From assembly GCA_963920705.1 (NCBI GenBank), contig OY987231.1, forward strand, positions 7,061,424 to 7,125,423: a stretch of 64,000 bases of DNA, in the 5' to 3' direction. Positions 14,501-41,894 of this stretch are shown here, one piece after another. Numbering within the stretch: the first letter of the stretch is position 1; every line of letters begins with the position of its first letter. The translations under genes were made by a program, and so were the position numbers. The notes below the pieces were generated by a model. The model had not been told where the DNA came from. It was given only the letters and a program-made list of their open reading frames with translations, and ran no database searches. Source of the DNA: Odiellus spinosus. Taxonomy: Eukaryota > Arthropoda > Arachnida > Opiliones > Phalangiidae.

Positions 14501-14501
14501 G

Positions 14502-17984: not shown

Positions 17985-18186
17985 GCCCTGGATAACCTAG
18001 AATTTGCAAATTGCCCCCCCCCCCCCCAAAGGTCAGAGAAACGTCAGGGAAATTGCTCCAAAAGGTCTGGGAAAAGTCAGGGACCTTTCTCCAAAAGGTC
18101 AGGGAAATTGCCCCAAAAGGTCAGGGATAAGTCATGGAAATTGAACATTGTCCCAAAGGGCATGGATAAGTCGGGGAATTTGGCAA

Positions 18187-18349
18187 TGAGCCCAAATATT
18201 CAGAATCCCGCTAAGCCTCTTTTGATGGTAAAATTTAATTTATTTCTAGTTTAATATTTGTTTTGTAAAGTTTTTATCAGTGGATTAGACCTATTTAAAC
18301 GATAAAGAATCGATAAAAAAACACTTGTTATTAGGTTGCATTCTCCCTT
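18187..18349. mobile_element. TA-flanked palindromic MITE, half copy
   Basis: Starts within the family at AATCCCGCTAAGCCTC and runs to the terminal TTAGGTTGCATTCTCCCTT followed by TA. It is inverted relative to the left part of the next copy, so 18187-18725 is itself a palindrome around a 280-bp spacer. Confidence 0.7.
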
Positions 18350-18636
18350 TAAGGGTTTCTCGCTTGAAAACCAATTTTGTGTGTTTTTCAAGCATATTTT
18401 CTTGGCACTTTTTTTTTATCCATTTACATTCTTCTACGCGCCAGTCTGATACTCTTATTTTCTTATTTTTTATGGTGAATATTCTTTCTCGTTTAAAAAT
18501 AACAACAAACATTAGAAGATAGTAGGAAAATAAGAGTGTTCTTGTCAGTTTTTAACCGTTTTATCTTTTAGCAAATTACCAGTTAATTTCATTCAAACAA
18601 AAATAATTTTAAATGTTTTTTTTCGACGAAAATTTT

Positions 18637-19347: not shown

Positions 19348-20121
19348 TAACTATAGCACCTTTAAAACCCTCCTTTCTTAAACAAACACTTTAAAAGAAC
19401 ACTCTAAAACATCTGCCCACTTTTTTTACTAATGCTAAATCAGTATCCCACGGCTTATTACGGACCCAACGAAAATAAATAGGTCTGCATTTTTGAGATA
19501 CACAGTAAAAAGGGATACTAACAGGGTTGGTACAAAATTTTGGAAGTTAATTTCCCTGATTTTCTAGATTTCCCTAATCATTTTTTCCAAATAATTTCCC
19601 TGCCCAATTTATTCTTACGAGCGAGGTTTTGGCTATTCACACTTTATTTGACAGTTTATGAATCAAGGTCGATAGTTTACTCGGAGTATAAGAAAAAAAA
19701 ATTTTCTTAAGCAAATATTTTCAGTTTGTAATATTTGTTAAAATTAATTGGTCGACCAATCAAAAACACTTTCTTGACACGAACCCAAATATTTAATTTC
19801 TCTGAATATTTGGGCTCATTGCCAAATTCCCCGATTTATCCATGCCCTTTGGGACAATGTTCAATTTTCATGACTTATCCCTGACCTTTTGGGGCCATTT
19901 CCCAGATCTTTTGGGGCAATTTCCCTGACGTTTCTCTGACCTTTGGGGGGCAATTTGCAAATTCTAGGTTATCCAGGGCTAATGTAGGAAACCTGCTAAG
20001 CCTCTGGTCACAAGTTATTAATAATCGATTTGGACTATATAGTCTGTTAAAACAAAAGTAAAACCCCTCGAAAACGGCTCAAAACGTGACGCGGTAAACT
20101 CTATTTTCAGAGAGAACTTTA

Positions 20122-20400
20122 AAAACATGTCTTTCCTTCATTAGGAAATAAAATTATGAAAATTAGGAAAAAACTAGTTTTTCGATATATTTTATACTCT
20201 ATATATGTATCAGGGGGGTACATAAAAACCTTTTATCTCAGCTCAAAAACGGTCAAAGTGTTTTAAATAATTCTTAATTATTTTAATTAAACTCCTTTTT
20301 TTTTGAAAATTATAAGGGGTAGTTTAATTTATCGGTATTTCACAAAATTATCTGAATTTAAATTACTGTCGAATTAATGGGAAACAGATTTTGAGTCTCA
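20122..20400 (+). repeat. Left inverted arm of the giant structure
   Basis: Matches the reverse complement of 40199-40590 apart from roughly 80 bp missing here. It ends in four 10-bp units (GAGTCTCAAC) at 20393-20432 that run directly into the minisatellite. Confidence 0.85.
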
Positions 20401-20431
20401 ACGAGTCTCAACGAGTCTCAACGAGTCTCAA

Positions 20432-23400
20432 CAGGGGGTGTATTTATTATTTATTTTTTTTAACAGGGGGTGTATTTATTATTTTTTTTTAACAGGGTGT
20501 GTATTATTTTTTTTAACAGTGGGTGTATTTATTATTTTTTTTAACAGGGGGTGTATTTATTATTTTTTTTAACAGGGGGTGTATTTATTATTTTTTTTAA
20601 CAGGGGGTGTATTTATTATTTTTTTAACAGGGGGTGTATTTATTATTATTTTTTTTTAACAGGGGGTGTATTTATTATTTTTTTTTTTTAACAGGGGGTG
20701 TATTTATTATTTATTTTTTTTTAACAGGGGGTGTATTTATTATTTTTTTTAACAGGGGTGTATTTATTTTTTTAACAGGGGTGTATTTATTATTTTTTTT
20801 TTTAACAGGGGGTGTATTTATTATTTATTTTTTTTTAACAGGGGGTGTATTTATTATTTATTTTTTTAACAGGGGGTGTATTTATTATTTTTTTTAACAG
20901 GGGGTGTATTTATTATTTATTTTTTTAAAAGGGGGTGTATTTATTTATTTTTTTAACAGGGGTGTATTTATTTATTTTTTTAACAGGGGTGTATTTATTT
21001 ATTTTTTTAACAGGGGTGTATTTATTTATTTTTTTTTAACAGGGGTGTATTTATTTATTTTTTTTTAACAGGGGGTGTATTTATTTATTTTTTTTCCAGG
21101 GGGTGTATTTATTATTTATTTTTTTTTTAACAGGGGGTGTATGTATTATTTTTTTTTTATCAGGGGTGTATTTATTATTTTTTTTTAACAGGGGGTGTAT
21201 TTATTATTTATTTTTTTTATAACAGGGGGTATATTTATTATTTATTTTTTTAACAAGGGATGTATTTATTATTTTTTTTAACAGGGGGTGTATTTATTAT
21301 TTATTTTTTTAACAGGGGGTGTATTTATTATTTATTTTTTAACAGGGGGTGTATTTATTTATTTTTTTAACAGGGGGTGTATTTATTTATTTTTTTTAAC
21401 AGGGGGTGTATTTATTTATTTTTTTTAACAGGGGGTGTATTTATTATTTATTTTTTTTTAACAGGGGGTGTATTTTTTTAACAGGGGGTGTATTTTTTTA
21501 ACAGGGGGTGTATTTATTTTTTTAACAGGGGGGGTATTTATTATTTATTTTTTAACAGGGGGTGTATTTATTATTTATTTTTTAACAGAGGGTGTATTTA
21601 TTTTTTTAACAGGGGTGTATTTATTATTTATTTTTTTAACAGGGGGTGTATATATTATTTATTTTTTTAACAGGGGGTGTATATATTATTTTTTTTTTTA
21701 CAGGGGGTGTATTTATTATTTATTTTTTTTACAGGGGGTGTATTTATTATTTATTTTTTTAACAGGGGGTGTATTTATTATTTTTTTTAACAGGGGGTGT
21801 ATTTATTATTTTTTTTTAAAGGGGGTGTATTTATTATTTTTTTTTACAGGAGGTGTATTTATTATTTTTTTACAGGGGGTATTTATTATTTTTTTACAGG
21901 GGGTGTATTTATTATTTTTTTTTAAAGGGGGTGTATTTATTATTTTTTTTTTTTAAGGGGGTGTATTTATTATTTTTTTTTTTTTAACAGGGGGTGTATT
22001 TATTATTTATTTAACAGGGGGTGTATTTAATATTTTTTTTTTTTTAAAGGGGGTGTATTTATTTTTTTTTACAGGAGGTTATTTATTATTTTTTTTACAG
22101 GAGGTTATTTATTATTTTTTTTACAGGGGGTGTATTTATTATTTTTTTTTAACAGGGGGTGTATTTATTATTTTTTTTAACAGGGGGTGTATTTATTATT
22201 TATTTAACAGGGGGTGTATTTATTATTTATTTAACAGGGGACGTATTTATTATTTTTTTAACAGGGGGTGTATTTATTATTTTTTTTAACAGGGGGTGTA
22301 TTTATTATTTTTTTTTAACAGGGAGTGTATTTATTATTTTCTAACAGGTGGTGTATTTATTATTTTTTTAACAGGGGGTGTATTTATTTATTTTTTTTTA
22401 ACAGGGGGTATATTTATTATTTATTTTTTTTAACAGGGGGTGTATTTATAATTTATTTTTTTAACAGGGGGTGTATTTATTATTTTTTTTAACAGGGGGT
22501 GTATTTATTATTTTTTTTAACAGGGGGTGTATTTATTATTTATTTTTTTAAAAGGGGGTGTATTTATTTATTTTTTTAACAGGGGTGTATTTATTTATTT
22601 TTTTAACAGGGGTGTATTTATTTATTTTTTTTTAACAGGGGGTGTATTTATTTATTTTTTTTCCAGGGGGTGTATTTATTATTTATTTTTTTTTTTTAAC
22701 AGGGGGTGTATTTATTATTTTTTTTTATCAGGGGTGTATTTATTATTTTTTTTTAACAGGGGGTGTATTTATTATTTATTTTTTTTTAACAGGGGGTATA
22801 TTTATTATTAATTTTTTTTAACAAGGGATGTATTTATTATTTTTTTTAACAGGGGGTGTATTTATTATTTATTTTTTTAACAGGGGGTGTATTTATTATT
22901 TATTTTTTAACAGGGGGTGTATTTATTTATTTTTTTAACAGGGGGTGTATTTATTTATTTTTTTTTAACAGGGGGTGTATTTATTTTTTTTTTTAACAGG
23001 TTGTGTATTTATTATTTATTTTTTTTTAACAGGGGGTGTATTTTTTTTAACAGGGGGTGTATTTATTTTTTTAACAGGGGGTGTATTTATTATTTATTTT
23101 TTAACAGGGGGTGTATTTATTATTTATTTTTTAACAGAGGGTGTATTTATTTTTTTAACAGGGGTGTATTTATTATTTATTTTTTTAACAGGCGGTGTAT
23201 ATATTATTTATTTTTTTAACAGGGGTGTATATATTATTTTTTAACAGGGGGTGTATTTTATTTTTTTAACAGGGGGTGTAATTATTTATTTTTTAACAGG
23301 GGGTGTATTTTATTTTTTTAAATGGGGTGTAATTATTATTTATTTTTTTAACAGGGGGTGTATTTATTATTTATTTTTTTAACAGGGGGTGTATATATTA

Positions 23401-26400
23401 TTAATTTTTTTAACAGGGGGTGTATTTTTTTTTTTTTTTACAGGAGGTATTTATTATTTTTTTTTTACAGGAGGTGTATTTATTATTTTTTTTACAGGAG
23501 GTGTATTTATTATTTTTTTTACAGGAGGTGTATTTATTATTTTTTTTACAGGGGGTGTATTTATTATTTTTTTTACAGGGGGTATTTATTATTTTTTTTA
23601 CAGGGGGTGTATTTATTATTTTTTTTTAAAGGGGGTGTATTTATTATTTTTTTTTTAAGGGGGTGTATTTATTATTATTTTTTTTTTAACAGGGGGTGTA
23701 TTTATTATTTATTTAACAGGGGGTGTATTTAATATATTTTTTTAAAGGGGGTGTATTTATTATTTTTTTTTACAGGAGGTTATTTATTATTTTTTTTTAC
23801 AGGAGGTTATTTATTATTTTTTTTACAGGAGGTTATTTATTATTTTTTTTACAGGGGGTTATTATTTTTTTTTTAATAGGGGGTGTATTTATTATTTTTT
23901 TTTAACAGGGGGTGTATTTATTATTTTTTTTTAACAGGGGTGTATTTATTATTTATTTAACAGGGGGTGTATTTATTATTTATTTAACAGGGGGTGTATT
24001 TATTATTTTTTTTAACATGGGGTGTATTTATTATTTTTTTTAACATGGGGTGTATTTATTATTTTTTTTAACAGGGGGTGTATTTATTATTTTTTAACAG
24101 GTGGTGTATTTATTATTTTTTTAACAGGGGGTGTATTTATTATTTATTTTTTTTTAACAGGGGGTATATTTATTATTTATTTTTTTTAACAGGGGGTGTA
24201 TTTATAATTTATTTTTTTAACAGGGGGTGTATTTATTATTTTTTTTAACAGGGGTGTATTTATTATTTATTTTTTTTAACAGGGGTGTATTTATTATTTT
24301 TTTAACAGGGGGTGTATTTATTATTTTTTTTAAAGGGGGTGCATTTATTAATTTTTTAACAGGGGGCGTATTTATTATTTTTTTTTTAACAGGGGGCGTA
24401 TTTATTATTTATTTTTTTAACAGGGGGCGTATTTATTATTTATTTTTTTTAACAGGTGGTGTATTTATTATTTATTTTTTTACAGGGGGTGTATTTATTA
24501 TTTATTTCTTTTTAACAGGGGGTGTATTTATTATTTATTTTTTTAACAGGGGGTGTATTTATTATTTATTTTTTTAACTGGGGGTGTATTTATTATTTTT
24601 TTTAAAGGGGGTGTATTTATTATTTTTTTTACAGGAGGTGTATTTATTATTTTTTTTTACAGGAGGTGTATTTATTATTTTTTTTACAGGGGGTGTATTT
24701 ATTATTTTTTTTACAGGGGGTATTTATTATTTTTTTTACAGGGGGTGTATTTATTATTTTTTTTTAAAGGGGGTCTATTTATTATTTTTTTTTAAAGGGG
24801 GTGTATTTATTATTTTATTTTACAGGAGGTGTATTTATTTTTTTTTGCAGGAGGTGTATTTATTATTTTTTTACAGGAGGTGTATTTATTATTTTTTTTT
24901 TACAGGAGGTGTATTTATTATTTTTTTTACAGGGGGTGTATTTATTATTCTTTTTACAGGGGGTGTATTTATTATTTTTTTTACAGGGGGTATTTATTAT
25001 TTTTTTTACAGGGGGTGTATTTATTATTTTTTTTTTAAAGGGGGTGTATTTATTATTTTTTTTAAGGGGGTGTATTTATTATTTTTTTTTTTTAACAGGG
25101 GGTGTATTTATTATTTATTTAACAGGGGGTGTATTTAATATTTTTTTTTTTAAAGGGGGTGTATTTATTATTTTTTTTTACAGGAGGTTATTTATTATTT
25201 TTTTTACAGGAGGTTATTTATTATTTTTTTACAGGGGGTGTATTTATTATTTTTTTTTACAGGAGGTGTATTTATTATTTTTTTTACAGGGGGTGTATTT
25301 ATTATTTTTTTTACAGGGGGTATTTATTATTTTTTTTACAGGGGGTGTATTTATTATTTTTTTTTAAAGGGGGTCTATTTATTATTTTTTTTTAAAGGGG
25401 GTGTATTTATTATTTTATTTTACAGGAGGTGTATTTATTTTTTTTTGCAGGAGGTGTATTTATTATTTTTTTTACAGGAGGTGTATTTATTATTTTTTTT
25501 TTACAGGAGGTGTATTTATTATTTTTTTTACAGGGGGTGTATTTATTATTCTTTTTACAGGGGGTGTATTTATTATTTTTTTTTTAAAGGGGGTGTATTT
25601 ATTATTTTTACAGGGGGTGTATTTATTATTTTTTTTTAACAGGGGGTGTATTTATTATTTTTTTTAACAGGGGGTGTATTTATTATTTTTTTTTAACAGG
25701 GGGTGTATTTATTATTTATTTAACAGGGGGTGTATTTATTATTTATTTAACAGGGGGTGTATTTATTATTTTTTTAACAGGGGGTGTATTTATTATTTTT
25801 TTTAACAGGGGGTGTATTTATTATTTTTTTTTAACAGGGAGTGTATTTATTATTTTTTTAACAGGTGGTGTATTTATTATTTTTTTAACAGGGGGTGTAT
25901 TTATTTTTTTTTAACAGGGGGTATATTTATTATTTATTTTTTTTAACAGGGGGTGTATTTATAATTTATTTTTTTAACAGGGGGTGTATTTATTATTTAT
26001 TTTTTTAACAGGGGGTGTATTTATTATTTTTTTAACAGGGGGTTTATTTATTATTTATTTTTTTAAAAGGGGGTGTATTTATTTATTTTTTTAACAGGGG
26101 TGTATTTATTTATTTTTTTAACAGGGGTGCATTTATTTATTTTTTTTTAACAGGGGGTGTATTTATTTATTTTTTTTCCAGGGGGTGTATTTATTATTTT
26201 TTTTTTTTTTTAACAGGGGGTGTATTTATTATTTTTTTTTTATCAGGGGTGTATTTATTATTTTTTTTTTATCAGGGGTGTATTTATTATTTTTTTTTAA
26301 CAGGGGGTGTATTTATTATTTATATTTTTTTAACAGGGGGTATATTTATTATTAATTTTTTTTAACAAGGGATGTATTTATTATTTTTTTTAACAGGGGG

Positions 26401-29400
26401 TGTATTTATTATTTATTTTTTAACAGGGGGTGTATTTATTATTTATTTTTTAACAGGGGGTGTATTTTATTTTTTTAACAGGGGGTGTATTTATTTATTT
26501 TTTTTTAACAGGGGGTGTATTTATTTATTTTTTTTAACAGGTTGTGTATTTATTATTTTTTTTTTTTAACAGGGGGTGTATTTTTTTAACAGGGGGTGTA
26601 TTTTTTTAACAGGGGGTGTATTTATTTTTTTAACAGGGGGTGTATTTATTATTTATTTTTTAACAGGGGGTGTATTTATTATTTATTTTTTAACAGAGGG
26701 TGTATTTATTTTTTTAACAGGGGTGTATTTATTATTTATTTTTTTAACAGGGGGTGTATATATTATTTATTTTTTTAACAGGGGGTGTATATATTATTAT
26801 TTTTTAACAGGGGGTGTAATTATTTATTTTTTAACAGGGGGTGTATTTTATTTTTTTAACAGGGGGTGTAATTATTATTTATTTTTTTAACAGGGGGTGT
26901 ATTTATCATTTATTTTTTTAACAGGGGGTGTATATATTATTAATTTTTTTAACAGGGGGTGTATTCATTTTTTTTTTACAGGAGGTGTATTTATTATTTT
27001 TTTTTACAGGAGGTGTATTTATTATTTTTTTTACAGGAGGTGTATTTATTATTTTTTTTTACAGGAGGTGTATTTATTATTTTTTTTACAGGGGGTGTAT
27101 TTATTATTTTTTTAACAGGTGGTGTATTTATTATTTTTTTAACAGGGGGTGTATTTATTATTTATTTTTTTTTAACAGGGGGTATATTTATTAATTATTT
27201 TTTTTAACAGGGGGTGTATTTATAATTTATTTTTTTAACAGGGGGTGTATTTATTAATTTTTTTTAACAGGGGGTGTATTTATTATTTATTTTTTTTAAC
27301 AGGGGGTGTATTTATTATTTATTTTTTTTTATCAGGGGTGTATTTATTATTTATTTTTTTTAACAGGGGTGTATTTATTATTTTTTTTTAACAGGGGGTG
27401 TATTTATTATTTTTTTTAACAGGGGGTGTATTTATTATTTTTTTTACAGGAGGTGTATTTATTATTTTTTTTACAGGGGGTGTATTTATTATTTTTTTTA
27501 AAGGGGGTGTATTTATTATTTTTTTTAAAGGGGGTGTATTTATTATTTTTTTTTAACACGGGGTGTATTTATTATTTATTTAACAGGGGGTGTATTTAAT
27601 ATTTTTTTTTTAAAGGGGGTGTATTTATTATTTTTTTTACAGGAGGTGTATTTATTATTTTTTTTACAGGGGGTGTTTTTATTATTTTTTTTAAAAGGGG
27701 GTGTATTTATTATTTTTTTTAACAGGGGGTGTATTTATTATTTTTTTTTAACAGGGGGTGTATTTATTATTTATTTAACAGGGGGTGTATTTATTATTTT
27801 TTTAACAGGGGGTGTATTTATTATTTATTTAACAGGGGGTGTATTTATTATTTTTTTAACAGGGGGTGTATTTATTATTTTTTTTTAACAGGGGGTGTAT
27901 TTATTATTTTTTTAACAGGTGGTGTATTTATTATTTTTTAACAGGGGGTGTATTTATTATTTATTTTTTTTAACAGGGGGTATATTTATTATTTATTTTT
28001 TTAACAGGGGGTGTATTTATAATTTATTTTTTTAACAGGGGGTGTATTTATTAATTTTTTTTAACAGGGGGTGTATTTATTATTTATTTTTTTTAACAAG
28101 GGGTGTATTTATTATTTATTTTTTTACAGGGGGTGTATTTATTATTTATTTCTTTTTAACAGGGGGTGTATTTATTATTTATTTTTTTAACAGGGGGTGT
28201 ATTTATTATTTTTTTAACAGGTGGTGTATTTATTATTTTTTTAACAGGGGGTGTATTTATTATTTATTTTTTTTAACAGGGGGTATATTTATTATTTATT
28301 TTTTTTAACAGGGGGTGTATTTATAATTTATTTTTTTAACAGGGGGTGTATTTATTAATTTTTTTTAACAGGGGGTGTATTTATTATTTATTTTTTTTAA
28401 CAGGGGGTGTATTTATTATTTATTTTTTTACAGGGGGTGTATTTATTATTTATTTCTTTTTAACAGGGGGTGTATTTATTATTTATTTTTTTAACAGGGG
28501 GTGTATTTATTAATTTTTTTAACAGGGGGTGTATTTATTATTTATTTTTTTTAACAGGGGGTGTATTTATTATTTATTTTTTTTAACAGGGGTGTATTTA
28601 TTATTTATTTTTTTTAACAGGGGTGTATTTATAATTTTTTTTTAAAAGGGGGTGCATTTATTTATTTTTTAACAGGGGGCGTATTTATTATTTATTTTTT
28701 TAACAGGGGGCGTATTTATTATTTATTTTTTTAACAGGGGGCGTATTTATTATTTATTTTTTTTAACAGGTGGTGTATTTATTATTTATTTTTTTACAGG
28801 GGGTGTATTTATTATTTATTTCTTTTTAACAGGGGGTGTATTTATTATTTATTTTTTTAACAGGGGGTGTATTTATTATTTATTTTTTTTAACAGGGGTG
28901 TATTTATTATTTATTTTTTTAACAGGGGGTGTATTTATTTTTTTTTTACAGGGGGTGTATTTATTATTTATTTTTTTAACAGGTGGTGTATATATTATTT
29001 ATTTTTTTAACAGGGGGTGTATATATCATTTATTTTTTTAACAGGGGGTGTATATATTATTTATTTTTTTAACAGGGGGTGTATTTATTATTTTTTTTAC
29101 AGGGGGTGTATTTATTATTTATTTTTTTTAACAGGGGGTGTATTTATTATTTTTTTTTAACAGGTGGTGTATTTATTATTTATTTTTTTAACTGGGGGTG
29201 TATTTATTATTTTTTTTTAAAGGGGGTGTATTTATTATTTTTTTACAGGAGGTGTATTTATTATTTTTTTTACAGGAGGTGTATTTATTATTTTTTTTAC
29301 AGGGGGTGTATTTATTATTTTTTTTACAGGGGGTATTTATTATTTTTTTACAGGGGGTGTATTTATTATTTTTTTTAAAGGGGGTGTATTTATTATTTTT

Positions 29401-31592
29401 TTTTTTTAATGGGGGTGTATTTATTATTTTTTTTTAACAGGGGGTGTATTTATTATTTATTTAAAAGGGGGTGTATTTAATATTTTTTTTTAAAGGGGGT
29501 GTATTTATTATTTTTTTTACAGGAGGTGTATTTATTATTTTTTTACAGGGGAAGAATTTATTATTTTTTTTAACAGGGGGTGTATTTATTTTTTTTAACA
29601 GGGGGTGTATTTATTATTATTTTTTTTAACAGGGGGTGTATTTATTATTTATTTAACAGGGGGTGTATTTATTATTTTTTTAACAGGGGGTGTATTTATT
29701 ATTTTTTTTTAACAGGGGGTGTATTTATTATTTTTTTAACAGGTGGTGTATTTATTATTTTTTTAACAGGGGGTGTATTTATTATTTATTTTTTTTTTAA
29801 CAGGGGGTATATTTATTATTTATTTTTTTTAACAGGGGGTGTATTTATAATTTATTTTTTTAACAGGGGGTGTATTTATTATTAATTTTTTTTAACAGGG
29901 GGTGTATTTATTATTTATTTTTTTTTAACAGGGGTGTATTTATTATTTATTTTTTTTAACAGGGGTGTATTTATTATTTATTTTTTTTAACAGGGGTGTA
30001 TTTATTATTTTTTTTAACAGGGGGTGTATTTATTATTTTTTTTAACAGGAGGTGTATTTATTATTTTTTTTTACAGGAGGTGTATTTATTATTTTTTTTA
30101 CAGGGGGTGTATTTATTATTTTTTTTACAGGGGGTGTATTTATTATTTTAAAGGGGGTGTATTTATTATTTTTTTTTACAGGGGGTGTTTTTATTATTTT
30201 TTTAACAGGGGGTGTATTTATTATTTATTTTTTAACAGGGGGTGTATTTATTATTTTTTTTTAAAAGGGGGTGCATTTATTTATTTTTTAACAGGGGGCG
30301 TATTTATTATTTATTTTTTTAACAGGGGGCGTATTTATTATTTATTTTTTTAACAGGGGGCGTATTTATTTTTTTTTTTTTTAACAGGTGGTGTATTTAT
30401 TATTTATTTTTTTACAGGGGGTGTATTTATTATTTATTTCTTTTTAACAGGGGGTGTATTTATTATTTATTTTTTTAACAGGGGGTGTATTTATTATTTA
30501 TTTTTTTAACAAGGGTGTATTTATTATTTATTTTTTTAACAGGGGGTGTATTTATTTTTTTTTTACAGGGGGTGTATTTATTATTTATTTTTTTAACAGG
30601 TGGTGTATATATTATTTATTTTTTTAACAGGGGGTGTATATATTATTTATTTTTTTAACAGGGGGTGTATATATTATTTATTTTTTTAACAGGGGGTGTA
30701 TTATTTATTTTTTTTACAGGGGGTGTATTTATTATTTATTTTTTTTAACAGGGGGTGTATTTATTATTTTTTTTAACAGGTGGTGTATTTATTATTTATT
30801 TTTTTAACTGGGGGTGTATTTATTATTTTTTTTTAAAGGGGGTGTATTTATTATTTTTTTTTACAGGAGGTGTATTTATTATTTTTTTACAGGAGGTGTA
30901 TTTATTATTTTTTTTACAGGGGGTGTATTTATTATTTTTTTTTACAGGGGGTATTTATTATTTTTTACAGGGGGTGTATTTATTATTTTTTTTTACAGGG
31001 GGTGTATTTATTATTTTTTTTTACAGGGGTGTATTTATTATTTATTTTTTTTACTGGAGGTGTATTGATTATTTATTTTTTTTAACAGGGGGTGTAATTA
31101 TTATTTATTTTTTTTAACAGGGGGTGTATTTATTATTTATTTTTTTTAACAGGGAGTGTATTTATTTATTTTTTTTTACAGGGGGTGTATTTATTATTTA
31201 TTTTTTTAACAGGGGGTGTATTTATTTATTTTTTAACAGGGGGTGTATTTATTTTTTTTAACAGGGGGTGTATTTATTTTTTTTAACAGGAGGTGTATTT
31301 ATTATTTATTTTTTTTTAATGGGGTGTATTTATTTTTTTTTTTTTTTAACAGGGGGTGTATTTATCATTTTTTTTTTTTTAACAGGGGGTGTATTTATTA
31401 TTTATTTTTTTTAAACAGCCCTGGGGTGTATTTGTTATTTATTTCTTTTAACAGGGGGTGTATTTATTATTTATTTTTTTAACAGGGAGTGTATTTATTA
31501 TTTATTTTTTTTTAACAAGGGGTGTATTTATTATTTATTTTTTTTAAATGGGGGTGTATTTATTATTATTATTTTTTTTTTTTAACAGGGGG

Positions 31593-31640
<48 letters not shown>

Positions 31641-32281
31641 TTTCTCAATCATAGTTACTTTACAATTTTCAAGACGACATAGCCCGGTAGACAATAACTC
31701 ATCGAAGGTAAAGTTATCATAGTTTTTTCTTGAAAATTCATATTCAGTCAGACAACATAAGTACAATTTCTTATTAAAGTATGTCTTCATCATTTTTAGT
31801 GGATTTACGTCTTTTATATTCATTCTCGTTTGGTAGGTAAAATATATGGACAATTTAGCTATACAGATTAAGATTAAAATTACTTTGTGATATATTTTTT
31901 TTAACAGGGGGTGTATTTATTATTTATTTTTTTTAACAGGGGGTGTATTTATTTATTTTTTTAACAGGGGGTGTATTTATTTTTTTTAACAGGGGGTGTA
32001 TTTATTTTTTTTAACAGGGGGTGTATTTATTATTTATTTTTTTTAAATGGGGTGTATTTATTTTTTTTTTAACAGGGGGTGTATTTATTATTTATTTTTT
32101 TAACAGGGGGTGTATTTATTATTTATTTTTTTTAACAGGGGGTGTATTTGTTATTTATTTCTTTTAACAGGGGTTGTATTTACTATTTATTTTTTTAACA
32201 GGGAGTGTATTTATTATTTATTTTTTTTAACAAGGGGTGTATTTATTATTTATTTTTTTTAAATGGGGGTGTATTTATTAT
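20432..32281 (+). repeat. 12-kb minisatellite, unit about 28-33 bp
   Basis: Several hundred units of a T-run, AACAG, GGGGGTGTATTTATTATTT, with variable T-run length. Variants include ACAGGAGG, AAAGGGGG, CCAGGGGG, ATCAGGGG and AACAGGGGG. Higher-order copies occur: the block around 24580-25040 recurs at about 25190-25640 (offset about 600 bp), and the variant order around 21060-21700 recurs at about 22630-23220 and 26140-26780. Open frames of 60-190 codons on the + strand (YLLFFFNRGCI-like) are repeat artefacts. Confidence 0.97.
31637..31896 (-). pseudogene. Duplicate of the last 260 bp of the retrotransposon
   Basis: Nearly base-for-base identical to 32314-32577, including the poly(A) junction, and cut abruptly into the minisatellite at about 31896. 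The satellite on its 5' side (31180-31636) also matches the satellite at 31905-32313, so this is a tandem duplication of about 680 bp and not a second insertion. Confidence 0.9.
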
Positions 32282-32313
<32 letters not shown>

Positions 32314-32319
<6 letters not shown>

Positions 32320-32935
32320 TTTCTCAATCATAGTTACTTTACAATTTTCAAGACGACATAGCCCGGTAGACAATAACTCATCGAAGGTAAAGTTATCATA
32401 GTTTTTTCTTGAAAATTCATATTCAGTCAGACAACATAAGTACAATTTCTTATTAAAGTATGTCTTCATCATTTTTAGTGGATTTACGTCTTTTATATTC
32501 ATTCTCGTTTGGTAGGTAAAATATATGGACAATTTAGCTATACAGATTAAGATTAAAATTACTTTGTGATATATTTTTGTCCCATCCGAATAAAACCAAT
32601 ATAATTTGTTTGACATATTAAAATCTTGATGAAATCTTTTGATCAAACCTTCAATTTCCATTAGAAAAAATTGAGTGATTTCGCAATTGAAGAATAAATG
32701 CTCAAGTTCACCGGTATTGTTTTCACAAAATGGACAATCTGGCTTAACATTAAATAATTTTGCGGCTAATTTAGGGAGAGTAATGTTTCTGGTAACAATT
32801 TTCCAAAGAATATTATTTTCCTTGGGAAAAAAGGCGGAGTGCCACACTGTGTTTATTCGAAAGTTCAGTTTTTCGTTTTTTGTGTAAAATATTTTTAAGA
32901 GTCTTTCGTTTAATTTTTCCGAAACAGGAAGTATT
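32314..32935 (-). pseudogene. C-terminal zinc-knuckle domain of the retrotransposon ORF2
   Basis: The frame contains VWHSAFFPKENNILWKIV and CPFC...HLFFNC, the CxxC-H-C zinc-binding motif (zf-RVT) seen at the C-terminus of plant and animal L1-like ORF2 proteins. It joins the RT frame through a frameshift near 32935. A stop about 20 codons from the poly(A) run ends the frame. Confidence 0.85.
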
Positions 32936-34975
32936 TTTTAACTTTTAATTTACACAATTTTTCAACTTGTACTAATTCTTTATTTATTTCAATAACTAGA
33001 TTGGATTCTATAATACTGTTTGAGAAGCTGTTTGACTCCCGGATTTCCGTAAGGTTGAAGGATTGTTCGAACAATTTGGAAATTTTCGTAAACTGGTTAG
33101 TAAGCGATCGTTCCGTTTGAGCCCTAAGACCTTTATTTAGGAACGGGTTGTTAAAAATCCTTTTATCTAGATCGAAAATATCACTTATTAGTCGGAAGCC
33201 CGGAGTCTTCCATTTCGGATGATAAAAGTCTAATTCGACGAAGGGATTATATAGAATGGGAAGCTTTATGACTTCATCTAGCGTTAGAGGTTTTTTCAAC
33301 CGTATTGGCATAGTGTTCCAAAAATCGAAAAGGTCACTATAATATCTTGGTAGGTAATCATATTTCAATTCAATTTTTGGTAAACCCAATGTTTCGAAAC
33401 TAAATTGATAAACATTGGTTTTTTTCAGGTAGAATTCGACGAAGGCATATTCTATTGGGTGACACTTTCCCTGAAGTAGGTTCTGCAATTTAGAGAAGGC
33501 AAAATTTTGCCAACGTGTTTTGATCGTTTGTAATCCGAGACCCCCATTTGGATAACTTTGCTTAATGTCTTCGGCATTCATCCAATGTTTTTCGTTTGAC
33601 CATATGACTTCAACACATTTTTTAAGAATCGTTTCAGAAAGTTTTAACGGTAAAAATAAAATAGGTAAAATGTAAAATAAATTGCTCATGAGTATATTAC
33701 ATAATTGTGACCGAGTTTTATAGGATAATCGTTCCGCTATTGTTGTGGCATTGTTTAGGTTTTGTATCACTTCCTCGCCCAAAAGATCGGCATGATCTTT
33801 TAATATTTCTTGCTCTATAGTGAAGTTTACCCCTAGGATCTTTAACTGTTTTTTATTCCATTTTAAGTTCATTGGATTGTCGGTTCTGTCTCGCCACCCT
33901 CCTAGCCACAAGCCTTTGCTCTTTTCCAAATTAAATTTAGCATTGCTCACCGCGCTGTACATTGAACATTCTTTGTTTAATGTTTTAAAACCCTCGTTAG
34001 TCGTAATGAATGGGGTTAGATCATCGGCAAAAGATAGAACCACTAAAGGTCTTGAGAGGAACGGTAATTGCACGGAATGGTCTTGTAGATTCTTGCGAAG
34101 ATGACATAATAGAGGTTCCAATGATAAATTGAATAAAAGACTGGAGAGGGGATCGCCTTGACGTATGCCTTTGGCAACTTTAAATTTCGCGGAAAGAATA
34201 TTATTGATTTTAACTCGCGCCTCAGCTGATTTGTACACAGCCTGGATGTAGTTTGAGATAGTACCACCGAATCCTACGTGGTTAAGGATTTCGAAAAGGT
34301 ATGTATGTTTGACTCTGTCAAAAGCCTTAGCTTGATCTAAGGAAAGTATCGCCAACGGGTCTGTGGAATTAAAGCTATAATGGTAAATAATATCTCGCAT
34401 AATATTTAAATTTGACATAATATTTCTTCCAGGAATGCTTGACGTCTGGTCACAATCGATTATTTTAGTAATTTTCTTGCTTATTCTCAATGCCAGGCAT
34501 TTTGATAAGATTTTAAAATCTGTGTTTAAAAGTGAGATTGGTCTCCAGTTTCCAAGTAATCTATGTTCCCCGTTTTTAAAAACTAAGATAATGATTGCCA
34601 TCGTAAAAGAAGGTGGAATATTTTCCGTATTTAAAGTTGAAATAAGAATATTTATCATTGTTTGTCCGATAATAGGCCAAAAGTATTGGTAGAATTCGTT
34701 TGTCAAGCCATCTTTGCCTGGTGATTTATTTTTTTTTAGGTTTTTAACGACTTCATCTATCTCAGCTTTGAGCAGCGGGCTATTGCACTCGTCCATATCT
34801 TCCTTTGACAGTTGTGGTAAAATTTTTACATAATTTGAACAATTTTTGGTTTCCTCGTCCGCAAAAAGGTTACTGTAATATTTAACCACTTCTGTAAATA
34901 TTTGTCCTTGCGAAGAGAGCTCATCCCCATTTTCATTTTTAACACAGGTAAGTTTGTTAACTTTATTTTTTCCTT
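32910..34975 (-). pseudogene. Reverse transcriptase domain of the L1/Tx1-type element
   Basis: An uninterrupted frame of more than 650 codons. RT motifs in order: KSPGKDGLTNEFYQYFW, NWRPISLLNTDFKILSK, SIPGRNIMSNL, LSLDQAKAFDRV (catalytic Asp), GIRQGDPLSSLLFNLSLEPL and SFADDLTPF (catalytic FADD in place of the commoner YADD). Then comes the thumb and the NGGLGLQTIKTRWQNFAFSK block typical of L1/Tx1 elements. The catalytic residues are intact although flanking domains are frameshifted, so this copy is relatively young. The frame reads through upstream of the first Met to about 34975. Confidence 0.93.
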
Positions 34976-35331
34976 CCCTTAATACTTAATAGTGTCTTTG
35001 ATGGGTACTTGAAAGCAACGTTACTTTCAATCTTTGTACGAGTGAGTATACCCTCAGCTTTTATATTTTCAATTTCTTCTAAACGTTTTAATAGTTCTAT
35101 TTTTTTACTTTCCGTTAGATTTTGATTTCGTATAAGAGTTTGTGTTATTTGTTTTGCTTCATCTTCTTGGTAGACTCTAGATTTATAGGTATACTCTTTG
35201 GTTATTGTTTTAATTAAGTATTTGGTTTTTTCCCACCAGGGTAGGATAGACTCTTCCTTCTGTGGAAAAGTTTTTAATTGTTTGTCCCAGAAGGTTTTAA
35301 AAATATTTATGTAAAGGGCGTTGTTAAACAC
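34963..35331 (-). pseudogene. Retrotransposon ORF2 linker between endonuclease and reverse transcriptase
   Basis: A 122-codon open stretch rich in K/E/T with WWEKTKYLIKTITKEYTYKS. In L1-type ORF2 this is the helical linker before the RT domain. It is one frame away from the RT segment, which picks up at about 34975. Confidence 0.7.
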
Positions 35332-35950
35332 CAGGTGTCACTAATATTTCTCATATTTTTATTATCCGAGTCCAAAATTACTGTCAGCATTATCGGTGAG
35401 TGATCCGACTTACCGCCGCCGAAAACCGTCTCCATGGCCCGAACCATAGGCCAAATGGTCGGTGAGACATAAACACGGTCCAGGCGTGCCTTTTGATTAG
35501 GAAAAGAGTCGCTACGCCACGTCATTTCCCTGTCACTAGGATTCACTAGTACGGTAGACGTCTAACAATTTAAATTTCGAAATAAGCTGGTTTAACTTTT
35601 GAACTAATAAGACTCGTCTTTCTAAAGTACTACTCCTATCCAATGTAGCATCAATTGTGCAGTTAAAATCACCCAGTAAAATAAAATTAAAGATGTTATT
35701 TTGAACAACGTGGTTAAAAATGTGCTCAAGTAAATCTATGGCTTCAGCGTTTGATTGCGGCATATAAATATTATAAATATAGAGTTTTAATTTTAGATTT
35801 GTAAAATCTAGACAACAACATTGTAGATAGCCTTTGATAATTTCTTCCGTGTCTATGTTTATATTACGGCATTTTTGGATTTAAATGTTTTTGTATATGT
35901 CGTAGCCACACCGGCTTTGTGGTTTGTCAGTCCACTAAAATTATGCTGAT
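35307..35950 (-). pseudogene. Endonuclease (EEP/APE-like) domain of the retrotransposon, broken
   Basis: Fragments on the minus strand: GLTNHKAGVATTYTKTFK near 35935, then MPQSNAEAIDLLEHIF, then FILLGDFNCTIDATLDRSS, and in another frame ARLDRVYVSPTIW and KSDHSPIMLTV. GDFN and SDHSP are the Asn/Asp and His active-site motifs of the apurinic-like endonuclease that nicks the target. The first third of the domain is missing, and frame changes and stops interrupt the rest. Confidence 0.85.
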
Positions 35951-35989
35951 ATATATTCTGTACAAAATTTGGTTTTTTAGTTAAGAAAG

Positions 35990-36340
35990 TTTATTATTTA
36001 TTTTTTTTAACAGGGGGTGTATTTATTATTTATTTTTTTTTTAACAGGGGGTGTATTTATTATTTATTTTTTTTTAACAGGGGGTGTATTTATTATTTAT
36101 TTTTTTTTAACAGGGGGTGTATTTATTATTTTTTTTAACAGGGGGTGCATTTATTATTTATTTTTTTAACAGGGGGTGTATTTATTATTTATTTTTTTAA
36201 CAGGGGGTGTATATATTATTTATTTTTTAACAGGGGGTGTATATATTATTTATTTTTTAACAGGGGGTGTATATATTATTTATTTTTTAACAGGGGGTGT
36301 ATATATTATTTATTTTTTAACAGGGGGTGTATATATGGCA
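35990..36340 (+). repeat. Continuation of the minisatellite beyond the retrotransposon
   Basis: The same unit in the same orientation as 20432-32281, showing that the retrotransposon landed inside the array. The last units carry TATATATT in place of TATTTATT. Confidence 0.95.
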
Positions 36341-36355
36341 CCCCTTATAAAAAAA

Positions 36356-37125
36356 TAATAATTGATTTTTAATAAATACACCCCCTGTAAAAAAATAAAT
36401 AATAAATACACCCCCTGTAAAAAAAATAAATGATAAATACACCCCCTGTAAAAAAATAAATAAATACACCCCCTGTAAATAAAAATGAATAATAAATACA
36501 CCCCCTGTAAAAAAAATAATAAATACACCCCCTGTAAAGAAAATAAATAAATTCACCCCTTGTAATGAAAATGAATAACAAATACACCCCCTGTAAAAAA
36601 TAAATAATAAACACATCCCCTCTAAATAAAATTAATAAATACACCCCCTGTAAAAAAAATAAATAATAAATACACCCCCTGTAAATAAAAATAAATAATA
36701 AATACACCCCCTGTAAAAAACTAAATAATAAATACACCCTCTGTAAAAAATAAATAATAAATACATCCCCTCTAAATAAAAATTAATAAATACACCCCCT
36801 GTAAAAAAATAAATAATAAATACACCCCCTGTAAATAAAAATAAATAATAAATACACCCCCTGTAAAAAAATTAATAATTACACCCCCTGCAAAAAAAAT
36901 AATAAATACACCCCCTGTAAAAAGATAAATAAGAAATACACCCCCTGTAAAGAAAATAAATAAGAAATACACCCCCTGTAAAAAAATAAATAATAAATAC
37001 ACCCCTTGTAACAAAAATAATAATAAAAACACCCCCTGTAAAAAAAAATTATAAATACACCCCTGTAAAAGAAAATAATAAATACACCCCTTGCAAATAA
37101 TAAAGTACCCCTTGTAAAAAAATAA
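36356..37125 (-). repeat. Minisatellite in inverted orientation
   Basis: The same unit now read on the minus strand (AATAAATACACCCCCTGT on +). The strand switch is at 36337-36356 with GGTGTATATATGGCACCCC at the centre. Flanking motif TAAAAAAATAATTGATTTTT-like sequence occurs at both ends (about 36350 and 37117). Confidence 0.95.
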
Positions 37126-39350
37126 TTGATTTTTTTGAGATTGAGAAAATTGAGATTGAGATTGAGAAAATTGAGATTGAGATTGAGAAAATTGAGATTG
37201 AGATTGAGAAAATTGAGATTGAGATTGAGAAAATTGAGATTGAGATTGAGAAAATTGAGATTGAGATTGAGAAAATTGAGATTGAGATTGAGAAAATTGA
37301 GATTGAGATTGAGAAAATTGAGATTGAGATTGAGAAAATTGAGATTGAGAAAATTGAGATTGAGATTGAGAAAATTGAGATTGAGATTGAGAAAATTGAG
37401 ATTGAGATTGAGAAAATTGAGATTGAGATTGAGAAAATTGAGATTGAGATTGAGAAAATTGAGATTGAGATTGAGAAAATTGAGATTGAGATTGAGAAAA
37501 TTGAGATTGAGATTGAGAAAATTGAGATTGAGATTGAGAAGATTGAGATTGAGAAAATTGAGATTGAGATTGAGAAAATTGAGATTGAGATTGAGAAGAT
37601 TGAGATTGAGATTGAGAAGATTGAGATTGAGATTGAGAAGATTGAGATTGAGAAAATTGAGATTGAGATTGAGAAAATTGAGATTGAGATTGAGAAAATT
37701 GAGATTGAGATTGAGAAAATTGAGAAAATTGAGATTGAGAAAATTGAGAAGATTGAGAAAATTGAGATTGAGAAAATTGAGATTGAGAAAATTGAGATTG
37801 AGAAAATTGAGATTGAGAAAATTGAGATTGAGAAAATTGAGATTGAGAAAATTGAGATTGAGAAAATTGAGATTGAGAAAATTGAGATTGAGAAAATTGA
37901 GATTGAGAAAATTGAGATTGAGAAAATTGAGATTGAGAAAATTGAGATTGAGAAAATTGAGATTGAGAAAATTGAGATTGAGAAAATTGAGATTGAGAAA
38001 ATTGAGATTGAGAAAATTGAGATTGAGAAAATTGAGATTGAGAAAATTGAGATTGAGAAAATTGAGATTGAGAAAATTGAGATTGAGAAAATTGAGATTG
38101 AGAAAATTGAGATTGAGAAAATTGAGATTGAGAAAATTGAGATTGAGAAAATTGAGATTGAGAAAATTGAGATTGAGAAAATTGAGATTGAGAAAATTGA
38201 GATTGAGAAAATTGAGATTGAGAAAATTGAGATTGAGAAAATTGAGATTGAGAAAATTGAGATTGAGAAAATTGAGATTGAGAAAATTGAGATTGAGAAA
38301 ATTGAGATTGAGAAAATTGAGATTGAGAAAATTGAGATTGAGAAAATTGAGATTGAGAAAATTGAGATTGAGAAAATTGAGATTGAGAAAATTGAGATTG
38401 AGAAAATTGAGATTGAGAAAATTGAGATTGAGAAAATTGAGATTGAGAAAATTGAGATTGAGAAAATTGAGATTGAGAAAATTGAGATTGAGAAAATTGA
38501 GATTGAGAAAATTGAGATTGAGAAAATTGAGATTGAGAAAATTGAGATTGAGAAAATTGAGATTGAGAAAATTGAGATTGAGAAAATTGAGATTGAGAAA
38601 ATTGAGATTGAGAAAATTGAGATTGAGAAAATTGAGATTGAGAAAATTGAGATTGAGAAAATTGAGATTGAGAAAATTGAGATTGAGAAAATTGAGATTG
38701 AGAAAATTGAGATTGAGAAAATTGAGATTGAGAAAATTGAGATTGAGAAAATTGAGATTGAGAAAATTGAGATTGAGAAAATTGAGATTGAGAAAATTGA
38801 GATTGAGAAAATTGAGATTGAGAAAATTGAGATTGAGAAAATTGAGATTGAGAAAATTGAGATTGAGAAAATTGAGATTGAGAAAATTGAGATTGAGAAA
38901 ATTGAGATTGAGAAAATTGAGATTGAGAAAATTGAGACTGAGAAAATTGAGACTGAGAAAATTGAGACTGAGAAAATTGAGACTGAGAAAATTGAGACTG
39001 AGAAAATTGAGACTGAGAAAATACAGCCTGAGAAAATTGAGACTGAGAAAATTGAGACTGAGAAAATTGAGACTGAGAAAATTGAGACTGAGAAAATTGA
39101 GACTGAGAAAATTGAGACTGAGAAAATTGAGGCTGAGAAAATTGAGGCTGAGAAAATTGAGGCTGAGAAAATTGAGGCTGAGAAAATTGAGGCTGAGAAA
39201 ATTGAGACTGAGAAAATTGAGAATGAGAAAATTGAGACTGAGAAAATTGAGACAGAAAATTGAGACTGAGAAAAATGAGACTGAGAAAATTGAGACAGAA
39301 AATTGAGACAGAAAATTGAGACTGAGAAAAATGAGACTGAGAAAAATGAG
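37126..39350. repeat. 2.2-kb minisatellite of 21-bp then 15-bp units
   Basis: 37133-37730 is mainly a 21-bp unit (ATTGAGATTGAGATTGAGAAA with one fewer base shown per line break) and 37733-38930 a near-perfect 15-bp unit (AGAAAATTGAGATTG). From 38938 the variant GAGACTGAG, and at about 39130-39200 GAGGCTGAG, take over. No frame of one + and two - registers meets a stop, giving spurious proteins of 726-883 residues (LRLRK, FSQSQ and FSISI repeats). Confidence 0.97.
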
Positions 39351-39544
39351 ACTGTAAAAAAATAAATAATAAATACACCTCCTGTAAAAAAAAAAAAAAA
39401 AAAAAAAAAAATAATAAATTCACCTGCTGTAAAAAAAAATAATAAATACACCCCCTTTAAAAAAAAATAATAAATACACCCCCTGTTAAAAAAAATAAAT
39501 AATAAATACACCCCAGGGCTGTAAAAAAATAAATAATAAATACA
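39351..39544 (-). repeat. Short inverted block of the 30-bp minisatellite
   Basis: Six or so minus-strand units (ATAAATACACCCCCTGT-like on +) lie between the 15-bp array and the 20-bp arrays, with an A-run at 39388-39411. One unit carries CCCCAGGGCTG, the same oddity as the CAGCCCTGGGG unit at about 31418. Confidence 0.9.
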
Positions 39545-40198
39545 CGTCGAGATACGTCGAGATACGTCGAGATTGGTCGAGATACGTCGAGATTGGTCGA
39601 GATACGTCGAGATTGGTCGAGATACGTCGAGATTGGTCGAGATTGGTCGAGATTGATTGAAATGGATAGCGATTTATTGAAATGGATAGCGATTGATTGA
39701 AATGGATAGCGATTGATTGAAATGGATAGCGATTGATTGAAATGGATAGCGATTGATTGAAATGGATAGCGATTGATTGAAATGGATAGCGATTGATTGA
39801 AATGGATAGCGATTGATTGAAATGGATAGCGATTGATTGAAATGGATAGCGATTGATTGAAATGGATAGCGATTGATTGAAATGGATAGCGATTGATTGA
39901 AATGGATAGCGATTGATTGAAATGGATAGAGATTGATTGAAATGGATAGAGATTGATTGAAATTGATAGAGATTGATTGAAATTGATAGAGATTGATTGA
40001 AATTGATAGAGATTGATTGAAATTGATAGAGATTGATTGAAATTGATAGAGATTGATTGAAATTGATAGAGATTGATTGAAATTGATAGAGATTGATTGA
40101 AATTGATAGAGATTGATTGAAATTGATTGAGATTGATTGAAATTGATTGAGATTGATTGAAAATGATTGAGATTGATTGAAATTGATTGAGATTGAGA
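39545..40198. repeat. Two 20-bp tandem arrays
   Basis: 39545-39655 repeats GATACGTCGAGATTGGTCGA and 39650-40195 repeats GATTGATTGAAATGGATAGC, about 27 copies, drifting to GATTGATTGAAATTGATAGA towards the right. The 261-codon open frame on the minus strand (Ser/Ile/Gln/Asn-rich) is an artefact, since 20 bp is not a multiple of three and the frames rotate. Confidence 0.95.
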
Positions 40199-40287
40199 TT
40201 CAAAATTTGTTTACCATTAACTCTACAGTAATTAAAATTCATATAATTTTGTGAAATACCGATAAATTAAACTACCCTTATAATTTT

Positions 40288-40334
<47 letters not shown>

Positions 40335-40735
40335 GGTAATTTTAAGTTCATAATTTTATTTCCTAATGAAGGAAAGACATGTTTTTAACGAGACGTATCT
40401 CATTCGAAGAGGAGTTTAATTAGAATAATTAAGAATTATTTAAACAACTTTGACCGTTTTTGAGCCGAGATAAGGTTTTTATGTACCCCAGATATATTTA
40501 TATATATAGTATAAAATATATCGAAAAACTAGTTTTTTCCTAATTTTCATAATTTTATTTCCTAATGAAGGAAAGACATGTTTTTGACGAGACGTATCTT
40601 ATTCGAAAGAGGAGTTTAATTAGAATAATTGAGAATTATTTAAAAAACTTTGACCGTTTTAGAGCCGAGATATATGGGTTTTATGTACCCCCTTGATAAA
40701 TATGTATATGTGAAAAAGCTAGTTTGAATTTTGAC
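40199..40735 (-). repeat. Right inverted arm of the giant structure
   Basis: Inverted counterpart of 20122-20400, with a poly(A) run at 40289-40331 and a partial second copy of a roughly 190-bp unit (TTTCCTAATGAAGGAAAGAC occurs at about 40360 and 40558). Confidence 0.85.
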
Positions 40736-41149
40736 GCTTTATTAGCGCGATCTATTGTGAAGCGATTACGTAAAATTTTGTTAATTTTAGTTTAAATGCC
40801 TTTTTTTTACAAAAATAATGAATATTATCATAAATGATTTCAATTACCCCTAATTTTAACGTTTTAACCGTAAAATTCTTTCAAAACTAAATTTTGATAG
40901 GTAGGTCTGAAAATGTTTTTAGGCCATATACCGTGTCGCGAGTCTGGCAGAATCTGTGAATTGTTTTGGACCGATTCATCTGGCCGAATGAACTACCGAT
41001 TCTGCCAAATTGACGTCAATCGTACATAATGGCGTAATCACTGAGTAATTCTCATATAACGTCATTCGTTACACAATAAAGTTAGAACTGGTAATATAAT
41101 TACCCTTTTGAAGTCTGAAAATCAAATCGGTTAAGATTTCAGCCAGGAT

Positions 41150-41894
41150 ATGCGTTCCTCTCCATTTATTAACCTCATACGAGAAATAAACTCCAAAATT
41201 GGGCAAGTTGAAGCCTCTTCCTATAAGCTCTACTACAAAGATGTGATAGATTCCAACAGAACACTATCTGAAATTAGTAACGTTGAACAATTATTAGATA
41301 TCCTTTTGGATAGAGACGCTTATTGGGAAAGCAATATCGAAGTATTAGAAAACGTAGTCAAAAGAGTCGGACAAACGTATCAAAATGTCAAAGAACCCCT
41401 TCTTCAAACTATTTCAATGTACAAAAAGCTTCAGTGTCACGATTCTCCTAGCCGTTGCGACGTATGCGAGGTACCAATCGAATTGGAATTACCTCAAATA
41501 GAAAATGTTTCTTTCGCAGTCGCATCAGCCCCTGAACAGGATTATGTTAGCGAGGAACAAGGTTTTAATTCCCTATATTTTTTAGAACCAGCATTTCCCT
41601 AAAATACTTTTTTGTTCTTTTTCAGAATTTGATCTGATTGTTTTATATTTGAGCGATAGATTGGCGCAGGATTGGAGAAGATTAGGCACGAGTTTGGGCC
41701 TGGAACAAGGGCTCCTGGATACTATCCAAATGGAGCGATCACCCGCTCCAGTTTACATATCAAATATGCTTCACGCTTGGAAAAAGCAAAATGGTGCTGC
41801 GGCGACAAAAGAAGTCCTCATTACCAAATTAAATTCCAAACACGTTTTAAGGCGTGATTTGGTTGATGGTATTAACAAAGGAAAATATAAATAA
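41150..41894 (+). CDS. FADD: FADD-like adaptor (death effector domain + death domain), two exons
   Basis: Exon 1 is 41150-41561 and exon 2 is 41626-41894. The 64-bp intron has a donor at CAAG|GTTTTA and an acceptor at TTCTTTTTCAG, and splicing joins the frames at phase 1 (codon GAA). The product is 226 aa, close to the roughly 208 aa of human FADD. Residues about 5-95 are alpha-helical with the spacing of a death effector domain (FINLIREINSKIG, LLDILLDRDAYWE, then VLENVVKRVG). Residues about 139-220 are a death domain with the family signature QDWRRLGTSLGL and the later helix VYISNMLHAWKKQ. In known animals FADD is a cytosolic adaptor that recruits initiator caspases through its DED and receptors or adaptors through its DD; that role is inferred here. 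Without the intron, exon 1 reads to a stop at about 41602 and would lack the DD. It converges with CCAR1. Another DED-DD adaptor is possible. Confidence 0.78.

Follow-up and report, generated by a model that had tools for sequence, protein, structure and literature searches.

What is a stretch of some 20 kb that is bounded by inverted repeats and filled with tandem arrays? The question is raised by a window of 64,000 nucleotides (C7:7061424-7125423; contig OY987231.1 of assembly GCA_963920705.1) of the 443-Mb genome of the arachnid Odiellus spinosus, in which an initial annotation, made from the sequence alone, had proposed a foldback-like structure between positions 20122 and 40590. The window means here this whole stretch, within which positions are counted; C-numbers designate sequences of the same genome and L-numbers the loci or samples fetched from it. 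Our results indicate that the region from about 20121 to 41020 is very likely a non-autonomous member, old and by now probably unable to move, of a family of foldback DNA transposons of the Rehavkus kind, and that its inner repeats have expanded. It can be filed as a giant, non-coding, array-filled and one-ended derivative of this family.

Arms and ends of the window copy

In a self-search of the array-masked window, the left outer arm (20121-20299) matched the reverse complement of 40407-40585 at 91.7% identity over 181 columns (E 1.7e-67), and the window self-search also aligned the inner arm (20296-20397) with 40297-40197 in inverted orientation, at 92.2% over 102 columns (E 6e-35). The first block reached an alignment score of 290, compared with a maximum of 39 among 200 single-base shuffles, which rules out a chance origin; the inverted arms described initially are therefore real, as two blocks of about 92% identity. 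Between its two blocks, the right arm holds a 43-base A run and a 42-bp partial unit. It extends outward through the terminus of the family described below to the end of the element at 41020, with 82.5-83.0% identity to two query copies along their whole 348 bp, so that the boundary first placed at 40590 fell about 430 bp short. The window units are about 89% identical to a family unit. In a tree of 279 sequences, composed of three window units and 276 units matched by BLAST (query start ≤10 and end ≥175, shorter units being dropped), the left and right window units were sisters with a support of 0.872. The inner arm is rare, with seven genome matches, two of which are in the window and two of which are just 44-bp fragments.

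The left side is broken. The terminus search did not find a left terminus in the window and returned elsewhere in it only weak and short matches, two of them at 18228-18310 and 18652-18701 (71-76%, E 1e-4 to 4e-4). Likewise, the 9 bp next to the right end (CGTACATAA) have no left copy within the window. The broken end adjoins a separate 3-kb inverted-repeat element (17120-20123) that, with its flanking TTAA, is presumably piggyBac-like. As TTAA occurs in a right-arm unit copy at the spot matching the left-arm break, this element probably inserted into the left arm, and a later deletion would have taken the rest. The 3-kb element also holds smaller inverted arrays at 17280-17425 and 17850-17978.

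A family with a common terminus and 9-bp target duplications

The left arm has at least 416 matches in the genome, counted from the best part of the match list with 40 of 74 candidates scored, and its 199-bp unit is thus common. At 12 of 20 fetched loci, two inverted arms made of 199-202-bp units run inward from both ends, and the remaining eight hold one arm or arms of different elements. Of these tandem units the window copy has one on the left, and one together with partial units on the right. The units are bordered externally by one unique sequence, the outer edge of which is shared, 348-349 bp out, by 27 of 30 flanks, the exceptions being the right flank of L012, the left flank of L016b and the shorter terminus of the window. 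The family terminus starts with ATCGTCGTCAATTTGGCAG or a near variant, and a search of the genome recovered at least 41 termini, a lower bound with 40 of 77 candidates scored.

We found 13 two-ended elements of 3.6-8.6 kb, a set that leaves out L012, whose right terminus is missing, and two large pairs of termini on C18. Target duplications of 9 bp are perfect in nine of the 13 and agree in 8 of 9 bases in two more (L013 and L023); none of 156 mismatched left-right flank pairs, used as a control, reached 8 matching bases of 9. When the two C18 pairs are added, the 15 two-ended elements comprise nine with perfect duplications, two with 8/9 and four with none. An empty counterpart of the insertion at C11:22521362 lies in the window itself, at 19139-19205, where the joined flanks match at 92.8% and the 9 bp are present in a single copy; for eight other elements, no empty counterpart was present in the fetched sequence. 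The other copies of the arms thus bear out the earlier proposal of a foldback element. Judged by its sequence, the window copy is a member of this family with a 348-bp terminus.

Large members and their transposase-like gene

Two large elements on C18 have the terminus at both ends: 4782007-4797445 (15.4 kb, its left terminus 6 bases short) and 4884187-4913088 (28.9 kb). The larger contains pieces of one gene, namely PHD-like and ubiquitin-specific protease (USP) parts (L030), a conserved middle region (L017) and a C-terminal part. Its USP part is recognised as UCH (E 9.3e-13), and its PHD-like match (E 1.9e-4, 21.8 bits) stands below the Pfam cut-off of 24, as does that of a relative, L063 (E 5.2e-4, 20.4 bits). 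The L017 region holds aspartates that, by eye, we take to be in transposase-like settings. In L063, the counterpart of the C-terminal part matches Ulp1 (Peptidase_C48, E 1.5e-6). Pieces of the same transposase-like gene are found in the smaller C18 element, and both C18 elements include a frame for an AlkB-like oxygenase (PF13532, E 2.9e-30 and 1.3e-29). A 296-aa middle piece of the gene has 59 genome matches, several per gene copy.

L063 (2099-9001) has an open frame of at least 2301 aa, the N-terminal side of which is coded by in-frame 27- and 54-bp tandem repeats. This frame adjoins arrays of 195 and 27 bp, in a locus where the family terminus is unproven; the window copy has arrays of 10-32 bp and no open reading frame. 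Scanned against Pfam at E up to 10, a 1501-aa piece of L063 gave UCH, Peptidase_C48 and zinc-finger models (PHD-type and B-box), and neither this piece nor the C18 pieces scanned gave a P-element or THAP domain. The transposase found no match by sequence in Pfam, NCBIfam or PDB that would identify it. Transposase-like coding inside C18 elements with the terminus at both ends supports the assignment of the window copy to a DNA transposon family. Read in reverse complement, the left flank of one C18 element equals the right flank of its counterpart over the 14 bases compared, and the two look, from these flanks, like one insertion duplicated in inverted orientation. If so, the absence of target duplications at the C18 pairs would be expected, because the elements would have been rearranged.

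The array-filled interior

Tandem arrays make up about 75% of the window copy (15,766 of 20,900 bp, with boundaries placed by hand) and a long interspersed nuclear element (LINE) 18%, so that an interior described at first as almost entirely arrays is so in its larger part only. The several minisatellites and the single retrotransposon of that description were recovered as arrays of 10, 27-32, 15, 10/20 and 20 bp and as the LINE (Table 1), the domains of which are RVT_1 (E 2e-31) and zf-RVT (E 2.2e-9). The main 27-32-bp array, the first block of which was delimited at 20430-31567 by Tandem Repeats Finder, is itself inverted, passing from + to - near the centre, a feature absent from the initial annotation. 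Exact 150-base words of the interior recur most at the two offsets listed for its nested duplications. The LINE 3' end has a second, identical copy of 255 bp beside array units; therefore, array growth went on after the LINE insertion, and this growth was probably recent.

Table 1. Features of the window copy and of the element adjoining its broken left end (window positions).
Positions	Strand	Feature	Evidence
17120-20123	.	Separate 3-kb inverted-repeat element, 154-bp arms 95%, TTAA on both sides, adjoins broken left end	Self-search
20121-20300	+	Left outer arm, one 199-bp-type family unit; terminus expected to its left missing	Self-search, tree
20296-20397	+	Left inner arm, 102 bp	92% to reverse complement of 40197-40297
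20393-20432	+	10-bp array GAGTCTCAAC, 4 copies	
20430-31596	+	27-32-bp array (A)ACAGGGGGTGTATTTATTATTTATTTTTTTT, about 388 copies (20430-31567), nested larger duplications at offsets 600 and 4314 bp	
31638-31892	-	255-bp duplicate of LINE 3' end	255/255 identical to 32317-32571
31893-32291	+	32-bp array, second block	
32284-35985	-	LINE retrotransposon inside array, frames interrupted, limits approximate	RVT_1, zf-RVT
35990-36336	+	32-bp array, third block	
36337-36369	.	Orientation switch, + to -	
36370-37104	-	32-bp array inverted, about 25 copies	
37135-39351	+	15-bp array ATTGAGATTGAGAAA (TTGAGATTGAGAAA-type), about 148 copies	
39356-39545	-	32-bp array, second inverted block	
39544-39655	+	10/20-bp array GTCGAGATTG	Same module in C7 locus L080
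39649-40196	+	20-bp array GAGATTGATTGAAATGGATA, 27 copies	
40197-40297	-	Right inner arm	Self-search, genome search
40298-40388	-	Rest of A run, short remnant resembling by eye the arms of L079/L080, 42-bp partial unit (40347-40388)	
40407-40585	-	Right outer arm, one family unit	Self-search, tree
40606-40706	-	Outermost partial unit, as at outer ends of two-armed family copies	
40705-41020	-	Right 348-bp-type terminus, element end 41020	82.5-83.0% over 348 bp
41021-41029	.	CGTACATAA, expected place of right target-duplication copy	No partner in window

Array-filled relatives in the genome

The initial annotation considered an array-filled unit of this size exceptional, but at least two other places in the genome have array-filled interiors of the same or larger size, as far as sampled. 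On C14, the terminus is followed by five units, 50 copies of a 21-bp repeat of the TTGAGA type (GTTGAGACGGGTTGAGAAAGA) and, from 11365371, the 32-bp repeat CAGGGGGTGTATTTATCGATCGGTCGTTTTTA in + orientation, which is continuous to 11383000 and then present at three sampled points (separated by about 2 kb of unread sequence). At about 11390809, the array switches directly to - orientation for 3.7 kb and is followed by a 22-bp array and then TTGAGATTGAGAAA. This switch is a direct mirror without spacer, whereas a 33-bp spacer is present at the switch of the window. For the right end of the C14 stretch, the best match was one of only 47 bp in L054 (77%, E 3e-4).

On C7, 15 of 16 points sampled along 3942000-3976000 are arrays of the - unit or of its palindromic companion, and the + orientation of the 32-bp unit was seen at none of the 16. 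The stretch ends at 3979320 with 32-bp (-), 10-bp and 20-bp repeats and the inner arm, an order common to the right side of the window, with other short repeats in between and a different outer arm. The centre of the window copy (about 36340-36395, the switch into the first - units) is identical in 55 of 56 bases to a sample of this stretch (L091). Low-complexity words having been removed (271, 44, 848, 3 and 52 in the five groups compared), exact 20-mers of the window interior were found in C7 (1319/5724) and C14 (1343/33,228) and in neither of two control groups (0/1817 and 0/5657). Since C14 repeats the layer order, and C7 a part of the order of the right half, the array layers tend to go together.

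In a tiny relative at C4:13508525 (L079), the inner arm is accompanied by two or three 10-bp repeats and by 104 bp of the terminus, at 88-89% identity. This relative agrees with the earlier expectation of small copies with short arrays as regards its arm, repeats and terminus piece. Ten points (120 bases each) sampled on the left of the L027 element on C11 contained no 21-bp or 32-bp array. One family is thus seen in several states. Copies of 3.6-8.6 kb mostly have target duplications, and large ones hold coding sequence; there is also a tiny remnant, and the array-filled stretches range in length from about 21 kb to more than 30 kb, as far as sampled.

Origin of the window copy

The mobile members of the family have the 348-bp terminus, tandem 199-202-bp units as inverted arms, inner short repeats in some cases and 9-bp duplications. 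We suggest that they most likely depend for their movement, in trans, on a large transposase with PHD-like, USP and Ulp1 domains, coded by the large members. As in Galileo, the repeated units would probably serve as transposase-binding sites. The arms of the window copy may have shrunk, leaving one or two units, and its left terminus would have been lost, whereas the inner repeats would have kept expanding by unequal exchange or slippage, both before and after the LINE insertion.

Several observations weigh against this reconstruction. The window copy is without left terminus, and target duplications are seen in the family, in which, however, two of the 13 smaller elements (L021, 6/9; L022, 2/9) and the two large C18 pairs (3/9 and 2/9) are without target duplication. 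In the tree, the third unit piece of the window (40606-40706), a short one, groups apart from the other two. The Pfam scans of the C18 pieces and L063 gave no transposase catalytic domain (no Mutator-like element, MULE), and Ulp1 was matched only in the relative L063, the C-terminal piece of the C18 element being unrecognised. No right arm was found on C14 up to 11405000, the inner arm also occurs in copies with other outer arms (C7 and C4), and window-interior 20-mers are absent from 19 other family loci (0/157,610). Finally, because a genome count of the 17-base core of the 32-bp unit gave 53,846 occurrences (control 0), the 32-bp repeat may have entered the element instead of arising in it.

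These last two counts agree with a different history, doubtful in our view, in which a small foldback captured, or was invaded by, a 32-bp satellite present throughout the genome, so that the arrays are foreign and the arms incidental. The satellite core and the head-to-head pairs of its motif (134 genome matches, a rough figure, as some overlap and some may be lone pairs) can indeed be set against at least 41 termini and seven inner-arm matches. However, C14 shows once more the succession of terminus, units, TTGAGA repeats, 32-bp (+), switch, 32-bp (-) and TTGAGATTGAGAAA, and C7 a part of its right half, and the inverted layout of the satellite fits a foldback carrier. The same evidence bears on the earlier suggestion that the arrays grew from the inner edge of the element: the recurrent layer order gives it partial support, whereas the number of core words, far above that of the termini, makes birth inside the element only a possibility. 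An artefact of assembly, with reads collapsed, expanded or mirrored, could be thought of for arrays that are so hard to assemble and for the spacerless mirror of C14, but it is an improbable source of the length or of the +/- switch: the window has no N, its switch has a spacer and a nearly identical counterpart in C7, the modules of the - side differ from those of the + side in both the window and C14, and head-to-head motif pairs with varied centres occur at many places.

The arms themselves leave less room for other origins. That they are two unrelated solitary repeats, which happen to flank an ordinary minisatellite cluster in opposite orientation, might be expected from so common a unit; however, among the units compared, neither window unit has a closer relative than the other one, the rare inner arm is present on both sides in the right order, and the C7 copy joins the same inner arm to the same arrays. 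The unit tree and this inner arm lead us to reject unrelated solo repeats, an explanation that we regard as very improbable. Even more remote is a segmental or inversion duplication as the maker of the arms. Although the two large C18 elements, with their reverse-complementary flanks, look like one inverted segmental duplication, copies of the family share one terminus although their flanks are unrelated, 9-bp duplications and an empty site are present, and the self-comparison of the window revealed no homology of at least 45 bp between the flanks outside 20121 and 41020.

Under the transposon origin that we prefer, the genome-wide abundance of the 32-bp repeat also allows a broader and quite tentative proposal. 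Rehavkus-type foldbacks might be carriers and amplifiers of a genome-wide inverted 32-bp minisatellite, spread as payload and ballooning in place to 20-40 kb, and, if true, one transposon family would seed much of the dispersed satellite DNA of this genome. The head-to-head pattern of this repeat reads alike on both strands, and the switches of the window and C14 do not fit it. At C3:27054628-27060818, the 32-bp motif forms four head-to-head pairs that have the same centre and stand about 2 kb apart. Tandem repeats derived from mobile elements are a long-debated route to satellite DNA, and the system described here allows tests of how such repeats originate within a transposon and persist once it has ceased to move.

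Comparison with known foldback elements

The foldback (FB) elements of Drosophila reportedly have long inverted termini of layered tandem repeats. In the element described here, the 199-bp unit lies outside and the repeats of 10-32 bp inside, and the likeness to FB is one of arm structure alone. The arm of FB4 is described as repetitive (PMC8277862).

Rehavkus is characterised by a 9-bp target duplication, a PHD finger, a minisatellite and a MULE-related transposase coded by a single open reading frame (PMC6446971), and the inverted termini of the 9.5-kb Rehavkus-1_TC of Tribolium contain 164-bp repeats, in most cases five and eight (PMC10218199). We use the Rehavkus label because this description fits our family in the 9-bp duplication, in the minisatellites and in the inverted termini built of tandem repeats; the PHD-like match in our family is the one below cut-off. 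The label refers to architecture and description, not to a sequence comparison. In contrast to Rehavkus-1_TC, the unit is of 199-202 bp, the terminus of 348 bp, and several layers of short repeats are present; the window copy, of about 20.9 kb, is non-coding apart from the LINE, with about three quarters of arrays inside.

Tetris of Drosophila virilis is a foldback with tandem arm units of about 220 bp that expanded to long arrays inside the element (PMC4079207). There the arm unit expands, whereas in the window copy the arm unit would have shrunk and the inner 10-32-bp repeats expanded; the authors of Tetris found no autonomous copy, whereas large members with pieces of a transposase-like gene are present here. 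Tm1 of root-knot nematodes combines composite foldback arms, 9-bp target duplications and a Mutator-type transposase (PMC3169594). Compared with our family, Tm1 is small, with motifs of about 14 bp and a Phantom-type transposase, and the available text of its description mentions neither USP nor Ulp1. Galileo, of the P superfamily, has long arms with tandem repeats that hold extra transposase-binding sites (PMC3688188). Its transposase is of the THAP/P type, a domain absent from the scans of L063 and the C18 pieces reported above. Galileo target duplications are of 7 bp. Among the papers listed by literature searches, no title described a foldback or Rehavkus element of such a size filled with arrays, which is weak evidence of absence.

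Other features of the window

A FADD-like gene occupies 41150-41891, its first ATG (at about 41150, placed by eye) lying about 130 bp beyond the right end of the transposon, so that the window copy may affect the promoter of this gene. A Death domain is found in a second exon (E 4.6e-7), and the death effector domain match is weak (20.5 bits, below cut-off). Another gene of the window contains LAIKA, SAP and DBC1 domains and is presumably CCAR1-like. Two further arrays stand 3' of its LAIKA/SAP frame, which is on the minus strand: a very uniform 30-bp array at 45337-46382 (99% matches, 30.8 copies) and a G+C-rich 29-bp array at 46577-47318. A further pair of inverted arms is located at 11176-11550 and 14477-14842 (93% over 376 columns, with about 2.9 kb between them). 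At the end of the window (62028-64000), 330-bp blocks of 97% identity alternate with 34-bp arrays in a two-level repeat that runs past the window end.

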